IMG/VR virus record: IMGVR_UViG_3300030389_002414
Coordinates: 1 to 32,649 of that record
DNA from: a virus
Strand: one strand, 5' to 3'
Length of the DNA stretch: 32,649 nucleotides
How positions within the stretch are numbered: the first letter of the stretch is position 1; every line of letters starts with the position of its first letter. Below, in pieces: positions 12,505 through 17,627 of the stretch. The position numbers were made by a program, and so were the translations under genes. The notes below the pieces were generated by a model. That model did no database searches and was not told where the DNA came from. It saw nothing but the letters and a program-made list of their open reading frames with translations.

Positions 12505-12542
12505 AAAAAAAAACCCCGAGAAAACAAGGAGTAAACTCGGGG
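12505..12542 (-). terminator. Intrinsic terminator between late promoter and first late gene
   Basis: On the minus strand a CCCCGAG/CTCGGGG stem (12542-12536 with 12520-12514) encloses a 15-nt loop and is followed directly by nine T. It lies about 45 nt after the predicted late transcription start and a few bases before the GGAGGT of the first late gene. A strong promoter followed by a terminator before all late genes is the lambda Q/PR' layout. The loop TTTACTCCTTGTTTT is antisense to a ribosome-site segment of three early genes. Confidence 0.8.
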
Positions 12543-12594
12543 ATATACAGTAAAGATGGATGGGTAGGTTTTTAGGAGACACTTACCCACGTCA

Positions 12595-12624
12595 ATTTTA
12601 CCAATTTTTTTTTATTTTTGTCAA
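12595..12624 (-). promoter_or_regulatory. Strong sigma70-type late promoter
   Basis: Minus strand: consensus -35 TTGACA at 12624-12619, an 18-nt A-rich spacer and -10 TAAAAT at 12600-12595. Transcription would start near 12588 and run leftward into the late operon after crossing the terminator at 12542-12505. The leader also contains a TGGGTA/TACCCA pair (12589-12584 with 12566-12561). Confidence 0.72.
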
Positions 12625-12654
12625 GGTAAATAAATAAGTTTTTTTTATATTGAT

Positions 12655-12707
12655 TCAACTTGGTCAACTTGGTCAACTTTTTAACATGGCCAACTTGGCC
12701 AACTTAG
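12655..12707. repeat. Six 9-bp tandem units, consensus YCAACTTGG
   Basis: On the plus strand: TCAACTTGG twice, TCAACTTTT, a degenerate TAACATGG, CCAACTTGG and CCAACTTAG, with almost exact 9-bp phasing over 53 bp. The CCAACTTGG copies contain palindrome-like TTGGCCAA junctions. Next to it (12600-12654) the DNA is nearly pure A/T. It could be activator or repressor sites upstream of the late promoter, or origin iterons beside an AT-rich unwinding segment. Confidence 0.8.
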
Positions 12708-12742: not shown

Positions 12743-13171
12743 TTACAACCATCTGTGTTTTAATCTATAACCATCGCCAAATAACTTGCGACTTGCAGAA
12801 TAAACAACGTGAAACCCCATATCCATTCCACCACCTTTTACTACACAACCATTGTATTTTTTATGTGGTTTGTAACCTAATAAATCCTGCAAAAACCAAT
12901 CAATACATATGATGTTATTGTCCTTAACTATATGAAACGAAATAACTCTTGTTGCTCCCGCACTACTAACGTGTCTTAAAATTCCCCATATAGTGATTTG
13001 TCCGTGAATGTAGTTGCAATAAAAACGCCCCAAATCTTCTGCTTTTTCTACCGACATTTTGGGGTTGTTATGAATTAAATAATCTCTAATTTCGCAAACT
13101 GTATCGTGTTCACCGTCATCCACAATAACCTCCGAATCGGGGTCTATTAACTTTTCTCCGCAATCTACCAT
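12743..13171 (-). CDS. Conserved protein with GGGMDMGFHVVY motif, unknown function
   Basis: A 142-aa protein. The first 55 residues are acidic and helical (VCEIRDYLIHNNPKMSVEKAEDLGRFY). The C-terminal half has RHVSSAGATRVISFHIV, GYKPHKKYNGCVV, GGGMDMGFHVVYSASRKLF and a terminal LKHRWL. I recognise this second part as a conserved family in phages and integrative elements (SSxGxxRVISxxI ... GGCGMDMGFHVVY). No biochemical role is known to me. Its start overlaps the previous stop as TAATG. It lies in the short leftward early operon after the divergent promoter at 13.5 kb, so it is probably expressed early. Confidence 0.75.
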   Translation of the reverse strand: MVDCGEKLIDPDSEVIVDDGEHDTVCEIRDYLIHNNPKMSVEKAEDLGRFYCNYIHGQITIWGILRHVSSAGATRVISFHIVKDNNIICIDWFLQDLLGYKPHKKYNGCVVKGGGMDMGFHVVYSASRKLFGDGYRLKHRWL

Positions 13172-13473
13172 TACTTTCTCCGCTCAATTAAATCTTGATG
13201 AATGGAAGACATTATTCTCATTGAATGTGCTAGTCTGCCCTCTTCAAAAAGTTTTTCAAAAGTATCTTCTGCAACTTTTTTTGCCATTTTCTTTTGCGCC
13301 CGAAACTGCCGTAACTCTTCTTGCGACTCAATTTGGCTTTCGACCCGTTTTATAAAATAACTAACGTAAATATTTTTATACAACTCTCGGATTTCTTCTC
13401 GCCACTCTTCCGACATTTGCCCCGCAGGAATATTGCACATTTCTGCCGCCGTAGCTTTATCATGCCCTTCCAT
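13171..13473 (-). CDS. Small helical early protein, unknown
   Basis: A 100-aa charged, all-helical protein starting MEGHDKATAAEMCNIPAGQM, with a coiled-coil-like centre (KRVESQIESQEELRQFRAQKKMAKKVAE). It is the first gene of the leftward early operon, directly behind a consensus promoter with -10 TATACT. The ribosome site AAACAAGGAG is identical to that of two other early genes and complementary to the loop of the late terminator. No family is recognised. Confidence 0.7.
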   Translation of the reverse strand: MEGHDKATAAEMCNIPAGQMSEEWREEIRELYKNIYVSYFIKRVESQIESQEELRQFRAQKKMAKKVAEDTFEKLFEEGRLAHSMRIMSSIHQDLIERRK

Positions 13474-13490
13474 ATTTTTCTCCTTGTTTA

Positions 13491-13531
13491 CTGTATAAAT
13501 CCAGTATACTACACTAGTTTATGTTTGTCAA
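13491..13531 (-). promoter_or_regulatory. Early leftward promoter with AGTATAC operator-like site
   Basis: Minus strand: -35 TTGACA (13531-13526), 17-nt spacer, -10 TATACT (13508-13503). The -10 lies inside AGTATACT, a perfect palindrome that also occurs beside the Cro-like gene at 17.06 kb. A related CTGTATA lies just downstream (13491-13497). This promoter drives the 100-aa and 142-aa genes and is likely controlled by the Cro-like protein. Confidence 0.75.
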
Positions 13532-13585: not shown

Positions 13586-13661
13586 GTCTTATCAGTCAAG
13601 AATTTTTTGGTTGGTATGTTCTTTAACAATTCGGCGGGCTTGTATAAACAAGGAGAAGATT

Positions 13662-13850
13662 ATGTATGCACATGAACTTAAAACTTTTTTTAATACAGTA
13701 AAAGGTAAAGATGGGGAACGTAAGGTTTTGCTTTACGACCCAAAAAATGATGGAAACCATAAAGATATAACCGACTACCCGACATTGGAATATGAAGGGA
13801 TAGAAGGGCCAAACGGCGAAATTATTTTTACAGTAATTCATAGCAAGTAA
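13662..13850 (+). CDS. Small early protein, unknown (62 aa)
   Basis: A 62-aa protein starting MYAHELKTFFNTVKGKDGER and ending in an acidic beta-like part (YPTLEYEGIEGPNGEIIFTV). I chose the ATG at 13662 because AAGGAG lies 6 nt upstream; upstream in-frame starts fall near the promoter. The ribosome site contains AAACAAGGAG, shared with two leftward early genes. It is the first gene of a two-gene rightward operon. No family is recognised. Confidence 0.68.
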   Translation: MYAHELKTFFNTVKGKDGERKVLLYDPKNDGNHKDITDYPTLEYEGIEGPNGEIIFTVIHSK

Positions 13851-13890
13851 CTTTTAACCGCAAGCCCGCTGATCTTTACAGGAGATGGAT

Positions 13891-14325
13891 ATGTTTATCA
13901 TAAAAGATAATAAAAATATCGACCCATCTGTTTTTCTAAAAGTCGGAGAAACATTTGGTGGCTTTCGTGAGAAACAGGCGGTCGATAAAGCGTTAGAGTT
14001 TTTTTTCAACAATCTCCCAGTTTGGGATAAGTTTCATGATTTAAGTTTTTTTGTACTGGAACAGGAAGGGAAGGATAAACTCGGAGTTGCTTTCATATGG
14101 AATCAGTTGAGATGGTATGTTCATTTTGAATTGCGACAACGTGAGTTAGCGTTCAAATTAAATAATAATTACACGCCGCTATACGCTAGGGTTTTTAACT
14201 CTGCTTTAAAAAACAGTAATAGGGAAATGTTTTATAATGTTCGCAAAAGTTTGTTTAATTCAATTGACTTCAATGAAGCCGGAGTATTTTGGAGATACTT
14301 GCAACGTTTAAGGAAGTTTAAATAA
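13891..14325 (+). CDS. Unknown early protein (144 aa)
   Basis: A 144-aa protein starting MFIIKDNKNIDPSVFLKVGE, rich in Phe, Asn, Leu and Arg, with a basic helical C-terminal third (NSALKNSNREMFYNVRKSLF). I chose the ATG at 13891 because the AGGAG then lies at 6-nt spacing; the ATG at 13885 touches the AGGAG. It follows the 62-aa gene by 40 nt in the same operon. Its end overlaps the stop of the convergent minus-strand gene by 8 nt. No domain is recognised. Confidence 0.68.
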   Translation: MFIIKDNKNIDPSVFLKVGETFGGFREKQAVDKALEFFFNNLPVWDKFHDLSFFVLEQEGKDKLGVAFIWNQLRWYVHFELRQRELAFKLNNNYTPLYARVFNSALKNSNREMFYNVRKSLFNSIDFNEAGVFWRYLQRLRKFK

Positions 14326-14512: not shown

Positions 14513-14751
14513 TTCTTTGCGTAGCTGTCTAAAACTGTTTTCTTTGTGACTTCCAATAATTCTAAAATGCTTTGTCGATTTTCGTCTTTCGCCTTCATCC
14601 GGAAATGACCTTTGCTATCTACATAAATAATTAAAAAATTATACTGATTGTTAAAATCTTTAGAAAGTTCTGCTAATTCTTTTGCCAACGGGTTATTCGA
14701 CGGTTGTTCGATATTCATTGGCGTTATCTCAAATTTTACTTCTTCACTCAT
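14509..14751 (-). CDS. Unknown 80-aa protein of the replication operon
   Basis: A protein starting MSEEVKFEITPMNIEQPSNN, with a helix (LAKELAELSKDFNNQY), a beta-like NFLIIYVDSKGHFRMK and a final helix. It overlaps the antiterminator-like gene by 8 nt and the next gene by 4 nt. There is no membrane segment or Cys. The family is not recognised. Confidence 0.65.
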   Translation of the reverse strand: MSEEVKFEITPMNIEQPSNNPLAKELAELSKDFNNQYNFLIIYVDSKGHFRMKAKDENRQSILELLEVTKKTVLDSYAKK

Positions 14752-15103
14752 CCAACCCCCTCGCTATTATACTTTTTGCTAAAAATAAATTTTGCTCAAA
14801 CTCATGCTTCCCCATCTTCAATCTAGCCGCCAATTGTGATTTTGACAACTGTCTACATTTTACATATCTATACACAATTATTTTTTTAAGTTTTTCAGGG
14901 AGCTGACAAACCAATCCTTCCACTCTCTCAGCTTGTTGAGTATTGAAAAACTCTGGTTCTTTTTTTTCTTCATCGAAAACCTCTCCTGCTTCTGGTACAT
15001 ATTTATGTTCAATGCTTCTGCAAGTCGTATCAATATGTGGCCCGCCATCTGGCAAACTCTTTAGATAACTATACCAATTTTGCAGGGCATCTTCTACGTT
15101 CAT
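14744..15103 (-). CDS. Q/RinA-like antiterminator or late-gene activator
   Basis: A 119-aa protein. The N terminus MNVEDALQNWYSYL recalls the opening of phage Q-type antiterminators. The C-terminal half, QLPEKLKKIIVYRYVKCRQL then SKSQLAARLKMGKHEFEQNL, has the LP-x-KLxxII-xx-RY followed by helix-turn-helix pattern of Q/RinA and sigma region 4 relatives. Such proteins let polymerase pass the terminator after the late promoter or activate late transcription. That fits the promoter-terminator pair at 12.5-12.6 kb, the only strong control site upstream of the late genes. The start overlaps the previous stop as ATGA. The family call is by pattern, without a search. Confidence 0.65.
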   Translation of the reverse strand: MNVEDALQNWYSYLKSLPDGGPHIDTTCRSIEHKYVPEAGEVFDEEKKEPEFFNTQQAERVEGLVCQLPEKLKKIIVYRYVKCRQLSKSQLAARLKMGKHEFEQNLFLAKSIIARGLDE

Positions 15104-15444: not shown

Positions 15445-15817
15445 CTAACAAATGTTCAATGTGAATATTTTCATCCCTACAAAAACTTTGCAAATCGTTT
15501 AGTAGATTGCTAAATTCTTCTTTATTCAATTTTGCCGTGCTCTTGTAAATTTTCACCTCTTTGTTATCTGGTGCTTTTTCGATTGTAACTGGTAGCAATG
15601 CTTGTTTCAAGACTTCATGCCATGCCGCCGCTCTATACTTTACCCCATCAATAGAGTGTTGTTCTTCTATTTCTTTTAAGATTGCCCAATATAATCTGTT
15701 TTGTTCGACTGTTCTTTTTCGTGGTTCAATCGTGCAAACATAATCGTCCGGGCAACTGTTGATTTTTTCAACCGCCTTTTTTCTTCCCTCTTTAGTGCTT
15801 AGTAGAAAATAATCCAT
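15422..15817 (-). CDS. ninB: NinB-like recombination protein
   Basis: A 131-aa protein with the NinB text RKRTVEQNRLYWAILKEIEE, then AAAWHEVLKQALLP and TAKLNKEEFSNLLNDLQSF. NinB (lambda Orf) binds single-stranded DNA and assists or replaces RecFOR in phage recombination. The length is normal for the family. It lies between the replisome-organizer-like gene (26-nt overlap) and a DUF1364-like gene, the lambdoid nin-region order. It would work with ERF and YqaJ encoded on the opposite strand. Confidence 0.85.
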   Translation of the reverse strand: MDYFLLSTKEGRKKAVEKINSCPDDYVCTIEPRKRTVEQNRLYWAILKEIEEQHSIDGVKYRAAAWHEVLKQALLPVTIEKAPDNKEVKIYKSTAKLNKEEFSNLLNDLQSFCRDENIHIEHLLDEMPYAK

Positions 15818-16274
15818 CTATGTCTCCCGTTATTTCACCAAACCTTCTTTTAAAATTAGATAAAACTTTTTTCTTAAAAACCGGAAATGGTTCTTCATCT
15901 TCAACATATTCTATTCCCAATGATTGACCCATTTTTATAATTCCGGTGGACGAATTAAACCACAAATCCTTTTCCTCTGGTGCTGGAATGTAGTGTTCAT
16001 CTTCCCATCTATGACCATTTAACCATGTACTTAGATGGCATAAAAACTGTAATTTTGATTTATCTAAAACTCCATCCTTGTCAACAAACCCTCTACTTTT
16101 ATATTCACCTTTTTTCCAAAAATAATATATTTGAGCAATTGTTTTTTGTTTTTCTATACAAAACTTTTTCAAATGCCTGTAATTTTTTTTGAATGCTTTT
16201 CGGGCTTGTTGTTTTGCTGACTTCTTATCAACGACTTCCCAAAGCTCATCGAACTCATCTTCTTCCTTTGCCAT
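15792..16274 (-). CDS. Replisome-organizer-like protein (C-terminal domain type)
   Basis: A 160-aa protein starting MAKEEDEFDELWEVVDKKSA, then KQQARKAFKKNYRHL and LCHLSTWLNGHRWEDEHYIP. The F-x-x-[FL]W ... KxxARKA ... ATWLNxxRWED pattern is the C-terminal domain seen in phage replication proteins that recruit the host helicase or loader. The N-terminal origin-binding domain of longer relatives is absent. I chose the ATG at 16274 because AAGGAG lies 6 nt upstream; its ribosome segment AAACAAGGAG is shared with two other early genes. It is the only replication protein found, so the phage must use host polymerase. Confidence 0.75.
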   Translation of the reverse strand: MAKEEDEFDELWEVVDKKSAKQQARKAFKKNYRHLKKFCIEKQKTIAQIYYFWKKGEYKSRGFVDKDGVLDKSKLQFLCHLSTWLNGHRWEDEHYIPAPEEKDLWFNSSTGIIKMGQSLGIEYVEDEEPFPVFKKKVLSNFKRRFGEITGDIDGLFSTKH

Positions 16275-16355
16275 ATTTTCTCCTTGTTTAAGACGCAAAA
16301 AGACCATTGTCAAAAAACTAAGTGATGTATCCGGTGTGACCATCTGACAGTTGGC

Positions 16356-17066: not shown

Positions 17067-17093
17067 CAAAAAACAGTAAAGAAAGGAAAATTT

Positions 17094-17627
17094 ATGTCTA
17101 TACCAGAAAAAGTCAAATTAAATGTCAAAGTACATGAAGCCTTGATGGTAGTGCGAGAAGAGGTTTTGATAAATGCTAAAGAAATGTCCGGGGAAAATAA
17201 ATATCAAGGTTTTAAATATTATACATTACAAGATTTTATGCCCGCTTTAATAAAAAGCCTTAGAAAAAATGGCTTATCATATGTCGAAAATTTTAGCCCT
17301 ACTGAGGCTTCTTTGACAGTCATCGATAAACAAAGCGGTAGTTATGTGACCACTACTTGCCCTATTGATTATTCTCACTTAAAGGGCGCATCTCCGATGC
17401 AATCGATAGGCGCTTCCATGACTTATGCTCGTAGATATATGTGGGTAAGTTTATTGGGCCTAGTTGAATTTGATGCAGAGGATGGCGGTGATATTGAACT
17501 TAATGAATTAGATCAAGGTAAATCTGCCATAGAAGACAAAGCAAATGCCCCAGAAAATATAGCTGACAAGTTAAAACGGATTCAAGCAGAAAACCTAGCA
17601 AAGCGGGAGCCTTCTAATGATTCGTGA
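17094..17627 (+). CDS. erf: ERF-family single-strand annealing protein
   Basis: A 177-aa recombinase that binds single-stranded DNA and pairs complementary strands (Rad52-like superfamily). It contains KYQGFKYYTLQDFMPALIKS near residues 37-56, then GASPMQSIGASMTYARRYMW and VSLLGLVEFDAEDGGD, the ERF core. The C terminus is acidic then Lys-rich. AAAGGAAAA lies upstream of the ATG. It is the first gene of the rightward operon and overlaps the YqaJ exonuclease gene, giving a two-component annealing/exonuclease system like lambda Beta/Exo. It would mediate circularisation, concatemer formation and gene exchange. Confidence 0.93.
   Translation: MSIPEKVKLNVKVHEALMVVREEVLINAKEMSGENKYQGFKYYTLQDFMPALIKSLRKNGLSYVENFSPTEASLTVIDKQSGSYVTTTCPIDYSHLKGASPMQSIGASMTYARRYMWVSLLGLVEFDAEDGGDIELNELDQGKSAIEDKANAPENIADKLKRIQAENLAKREPSNDS

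Follow-up and report, generated by a model that had tools for sequence, protein, structure and literature searches.

A late-operon leader complementary to early ribosome sites in a lineage-specific manner in marine phages

In a marine phage contig of 32,649 bases from IMG/VR, referred to here as the window, and in several of its relatives, the late operon opens with a promoter and an intrinsic terminator, and the short leader between them is complementary to ribosome sites of the phage's own early genes, with a lineage-by-lineage covariation that is limited to early ribosome sites. That the leader RNA and its early targets have changed together in several lineages suggests an RNA switch turning off early genes. 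Judging from these sequence comparisons, repression of early translation by a trans-acting late-leader RNA is the best explanation of the data, and one that we consider probable. Structural and packaging genes of the window occupy the minus strand; the early block, at ~12.7-19.0 kb, includes genes for an Erf-like annealing protein, an exonuclease, NinB and a replication protein, together with a DUF968-like gene.

The late leader of the window and its early targets

The elements of the late leader region are the following.

12595-12624, minus strand: late promoter of the sigma-70 type (TTGACA, 18-nt spacer, TAAAAT)
12505-12588, minus strand: predicted short leader RNA of ~84 nt, from the presumed start to the terminator T-run
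12560-12590, minus strand: 5' hairpin of the predicted fold, whose loop holds TGTCTCCT (~12582-12574)
12544-12561, minus strand: antisense segment A, ATCCATCTTTACTGTATA, located in the open linker and unpaired in the predicted fold
12522-12531, minus strand: antisense segment B, CTCCTTGTTT, inside the terminator loop
12514-12542, minus strand: intrinsic terminator, a hairpin with 7 bp in the stem and 15 nt in the loop, where the late operon starts

The promoter, located 5' of the terminator, is close to consensus, with a TG extension and 11 matches out of 12. The minus-strand terminator sequence is CCCCGAG[TTTACTCCTTGTTTT]CTCGGGG followed by T9, with the stem formed by 12542-12536 and 12520-12514, the loop by 12535-12521 and the T-run by 12513-12505. 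Transcription from a start predicted at ~12588 to 12505 would yield an RNA of ~84 nt, and the promoter and terminator thereby predict the same length as the original prediction, made from the letters of the window alone. In the predicted fold, an open linker separates a 5' hairpin from the terminator hairpin, which ends in a U9 tail compatible with a stable, Hfq-bound, RNase E-processed RNA. No Rfam family reaches its gathering score anywhere in the window. Just upstream of the late promoter, positions 12650-12706 carry the repeats TTGGTCAAC/TTGGCCAAC (minus strand AAGTTGGCCAAGTTGGCCA...AAGTTGACCAAGTTGACCAAGTTG), which resemble regulator sites and were not seen in G001, the nearest relative.

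The sites complementary to the leader are distributed over the early block.

13480-13497, minus strand: target of both segment A and segment B, in the 5' leader and ribosome site of gene 13171-13473
13646-13655, plus strand: target, ribosome site of gene 13662-13850, exact AAACAAGGAG
16280-16289, minus strand: target, ribosome site of gene 15792-16274 (PHROG 270/9327 replication protein), exact AAACAAGGAG
17073-17082, plus strand: target, leader of the Erf-like annealing gene 17094-17627 (PHROG 155 Erf), ACAGTAAAGA, 10 nt
13877-13890, plus strand: probable target, leader of gene 13891-14325 (PHROG 13625), GAGATGGAT, 9 bp with TACAG adjoining
15820-15828, minus strand: possible target, ribosome site of the NinB gene, facing TGTCTCCT of the 5' hairpin loop (helix -17.0 kcal/mol)

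AAACAAGGAG, the complement of CTCCTTGTTT, occurs exactly four times in the contig, at the terminator (12522-12531) and at three ribosome sites (13480-13489, 13646-13655 and 16280-16289); its mean count in dinucleotide shuffles is 0.15, and four was never reached in 100 of them. The terminator, its loop word and the three matching ribosome sites are exactly as originally described, and the claim that the 10-mer is confined to three early genes holds for the whole contig. Two further antisense words escaped that description: TGTCTCCT in the 5' hairpin loop, and TCTTTACTGTATA in the linker (~12556-12544), of which 11 nt match TATACAGTAAA directly upstream of the ribosome site of gene 13473 and 10 nt a stretch of the Erf gene leader (17073-17082). 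Segment A as a whole is complementary to sites upstream of genes 13473 (minus), 17094 (plus) and 13891 (plus). Exact complements of at least 10 nt to the leader are found at four genes of the window, against 0.11 with dinucleotide-shuffled leaders (P = 0.00025).

Given that the promoter of gene 13473 (13531-13503) predicts an mRNA beginning at about the first base of the target, nearly the entire 5' leader of this gene, predicted at 23 nt, would be covered by the pairing. An inverted repeat, ACTG-N8-CAGT, spans the -10 box and start of the same promoter (13490-13525), between divergent genes, and is a possible operator. Gene 15792-16274 lies upstream of NinB and of a Q-like gene, and its ortholog in G001 retains AACAAGGAG; the G001 ortholog of the Erf-like gene pairs through another segment (13 bp). 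The NinB pairing is not consistent between lineages.

Conservation and covariation in related phages

Relatives were found through the gene downstream of the terminator and through the terminase. All eight close marine relatives that hold the region (G001, G002, G003, G004, G005, G019, G020 and G024) have a terminator at the equivalent place together with the promoter and leader, the promoter being least clear in G004; similar promoters at the equivalent place are found in G001, G002, G003, G005, G020 and G024. In G001 all three antisense segments are conserved while the terminator stem changes with compensation, such that an identical 15-nt loop sits on a compensated stem, and the 5' hairpin likewise combines an identical loop with a compensated stem. 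The same holds for sister pairs, in which antisense segments are conserved and stems compensated.

Further from the window, the antisense segment shifts in position and sequence, being located in the terminator loop in the window, G001 and G004 and in the linker before the terminator in G002 and G003. G004 has a related loop, CTTCCTTGTTTT, on a different stem, and its loop word TTCCTTGTTTTG is complementary to CAAAACAAGGAA. In G002 the leader word CTTTCATCTGAA faces TTCAGATGAAAG and two neighbouring genes, a cluster of three, the best helix comprising 12 exact pairs and helices reaching up to 14 bp when wobble pairs are counted. The antisense segment of G024 is identical to that of G002, yet is paired with other genes. 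In G003 the leader word TCTCCAAA is complementary to TTTGGAGA at seven early ribosome sites. The recurrent TTTGGAGA before seven early genes of this phage (contig L083), several of them with preceding C runs, resembles a lineage-wide standard early leader. The PHROG 13625 early gene has orthologs whose ribosome sites differ between the window lineage, G003 and G004; in three phages (G001, G003 and G004) the ribosome site of this ortholog is covered by the best helix with the phage's own leader. On these sequence grounds, the conserved feature is antisense to the phage's own early ribosome sites somewhere in the accessible late leader, not the loop as such. Exact loop conservation was accordingly abandoned as too narrow a test, since the segment shifts between loop and linker. 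Elsewhere, the 18-nt loop word turned up in three contigs that are unrelated, and in none of them does it form a terminator loop.

Covariation was assessed by scoring, for each gene with an ATG start, the best contiguous helix between a leader and positions -24 to +3; scores were averaged separately for early and late genes, row and column means were removed from the leader-by-genome matrix and leader labels permuted. Gene starts were called mechanically and the division into early and late genes was our own. Leaders were not picked for pairing, although the G002 and G003 matches had been noticed before the test was designed. Unrestricted RNAduplex ranking proved too noisy, owing to long internal loops, and was replaced by contiguous helices. 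With six independent leaders, the true assignment was the best of all permutations at early genes (1/720) and all six own-leader residuals favoured pairing there; with ten leaders the result was 3/20000 label permutations. Late genes were ordinary in the same permutation test (198/720), and at early genes no effect was seen with the antisense leader, the reversed leader, the flanking 80 nt on either side or windows displaced by 27 or 54 nt. The covariation foreseen in the original prediction between the loop and early ribosome sites is therefore recovered in a broader form. The permutation result was robust to omission of wobble pairs, to the use of four scores and to removal of G003, and stood at 2/120 with the main score when both G003 and G004 were removed. 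An ortholog-paired test gave p = 0.003, with the own leader ranking first in 17 of 44 cases where 7.3 would be expected. Relative to 400 random segments of their own genomes, the leaders of the window, G002, G003 and G004 rank in the top 0.5% for early-site pairing, that of G020 at 2%, and that of G005 is ordinary. The lambda 6S leader shows no pairing with its own early genes in the same kind of test, which indicates both that the method does not yield positives by itself and that pairing of a late leader with early genes is not general. Calculated binding energies, which are supportive only given that co-folding is unable to model loop kissing, were -7 to -14 kcal/mol for early targets, -3.9 for the first late gene and -4 to -9 for most late genes tried.

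In part of the group the terminator is present without the pairing. Loss of complementarity from a retained terminator loop, which the original prediction held to speak against a regulatory role, is literally the case in G002 and G003, whose antisense is found in the linker instead; such loss does apply to the distant freshwater group and largely to the G005 and G020 lineages. In G005/L375/L376 and in G020, own-leader pairing is weak or absent (borderline in G020), and freshwater relatives with 65% terminase identity keep the terminator and short leaders with a TCTCC core that show no covariation with early sites. The terminator being found in these three groups without detectable early pairing, the function, if real, would be limited to part of the group. 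The freshwater late leaders (L116, L123, L125, L137, L145, L147 and others) are ~50 nt long, with TCTCC between the -10 box and the terminator, and the start codon directly follows the T-run, apparently without a Shine-Dalgarno site. G005 encodes a CI/LexA-like repressor (L085, 8212-8811; PHROG 4, E 5.6e-16), suggestive of at least this relative being temperate. Among cultured phages, the only blastn hits were short and fell in small genes of phages that are unrelated, and terminase relatives reach ~52% identity at most.

Proposed mechanism and alternative explanations

We propose that the late promoter fires without phage help and that transcription would halt at the leader terminator, producing a stable RNA of ~84 nt with a 5' hairpin, an open pyrimidine-rich segment and a terminator with a U-tail. 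The accessible segments of this RNA would pair in trans with the Shine-Dalgarno regions of several of the phage's own early genes, among them those for replication and Erf recombination and several small genes of unassigned function, and block their translation; the pairing covering the Shine-Dalgarno site, translation repression is the simplest outcome. Made while the late promoter idles, the RNA, through its own level or through late mRNA carrying it, may damp early genes. Once a late antiterminator or activator acts, the leader would become the 5' end of the late mRNA, so that early-gene repression would rise as late expression begins. We infer from these patterns that the RNA would accumulate and act in trans, that it is a repressor and is not itself sponged, and that it marks an early-to-late switch. 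The silencing function originally suggested for the loop finds support in the own-leader covariation at early sites, production of the RNA and silencing itself being part of the same inference.

The partner of the leader in antitermination could plausibly, if only suggestively, be the product of the following gene.

14744-15103, minus strand: candidate late regulator or antiterminator, Q-like (weak PHROG 79 match, sigma region 4-like model)

Three of seven orthologs of this protein match the Q-like PHROG 79, albeit weakly (best E 2.6e-4), and its structure model is similar to sigma region 4, with a best Foldseek E of 0.04. The protein and its orthologs are small and conserved; cysteines 28 and 66 are invariant, and the C-terminal half is like sigma region 4. 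Based on the model, it may represent a candidate late regulator of a little-described family.

Chance is the alternative that deserves most attention, even if we find it unlikely: A/G-rich Shine-Dalgarno sites will match pyrimidine-rich leaders by composition, and the terminator might merely insulate the late operon. The leaders are indeed rich in anti-SD cores and, when these are held fixed in the shuffles, the window alone is not significant (p = 0.18), in line with the original caution that part of the match is expected by chance; the argument is therefore carried by the comparative test. Distant relatives that retain the terminator without covariation also fit this reading. Shared composition, however, cannot give own-leader specificity for early but not late genes, such that the permutation test strongly disfavours it; G002, G003 and G004 exceed core-preserving shuffles (p ~0.001), and the four 10-nt matches of the window far exceed their expectation.

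Phage late-operon leaders are known sites of antitermination control, and the anti-SD segments could act solely in cis, controlling translation of the first late gene or aiding antitermination, with early pairing as a by-product. The freshwater leaders, with TCTCC between promoter and terminator and no early covariation, would suit such a role. We nevertheless judge it very unlikely, since the leader is predicted to bind the first late ribosome site weakly compared with the early targets and since it leaves unexplained why the segment tracks early ribosome sites. Most improbable in our view is that the shared words are DNA sites bound by a phage regulator at the late promoter region and in early gene leaders. 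TATACAGTAAA upstream of gene 13473 does overlap the inverted repeat around that promoter, which would allow part of segment A to be an operator half-site, but the words lie on the Shine-Dalgarno site itself and without exception in the complementary orientation, the control with the antisense leader shows no effect, wobble pairs lengthen several duplexes and no palindrome is common to the lineages.

Should repression in trans by the leader be confirmed, a by-product of antitermination would gain a clear job, that of shutting early genes in step with late transcription, and lineage-specific cross-regulation would be predicted in mixed infections. The wider proposal, that the late leader in this marine phage lineage serves as a fast-evolving antisense RNA dedicated to regulating a whole early regulon, with a lineage-specific early ribosome site and a co-evolving leader forming a per-phage RNA 'key' for the early-to-late switch, we hold to be evenly balanced between true and false. 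The search itself, in which a leader is compared with the early sites of its own phage under permuted labels, is usable on any phage group.

Comparison with known phage systems

In the open-access literature we found no late-leader RNA aimed at the early regulon of its own phage, although one may exist elsewhere. Phage antisense RNAs that block translation initiation include c4 RNA of P1/P7 and sar RNA of P22, the former covering a ribosome site and using loops (PMC12197685). Unlike the leader described here, they have a single target, the antirepressor, are not late leaders and control no regulon; no antirepressor appeared among the early genes scanned, as judged from their general annotation.

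The lambda 6S RNA is the PR' leader of that phage, and is equivalent to the window leader in genomic position and mode of production but without pairing to its own early genes. It is Hfq-dependent and its function is unexplored (PMC12197685). StxS, a phage small RNA made between the late promoter PR' and the terminator tR', has a late toxin gene and host rpoS as its reported targets (PMC7873438). While the lambda late leader RNA has no assigned role, StxS is proof that such leaders can regulate. Like StxS, the RNA proposed here would be a short product of a constitutive late promoter, terminated before antitermination, and is predicted to block translation by pairing in trans at the ribosome site. 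Upstream of their late operons, the window and the eight close relatives that include the region have a late promoter with an intrinsic terminator immediately behind it; sequence and covariation point to trans pairing over ribosome sites. The proposed RNA differs from StxS in being aimed, by prediction, at several early genes of its own phage and in a covariation of segment and targets between lineages.

In T4, the RegB endoribonuclease shuts off many early genes by attacking the GGAG of their Shine-Dalgarno sites (PMC3014915). RegB is a protein nuclease, whereas in the window phage an RNA would do the same job. By analogy, StxS is best regarded as the closest precedent of the proposed late-leader RNA in origin, and T4 RegB as its parallel in effect.
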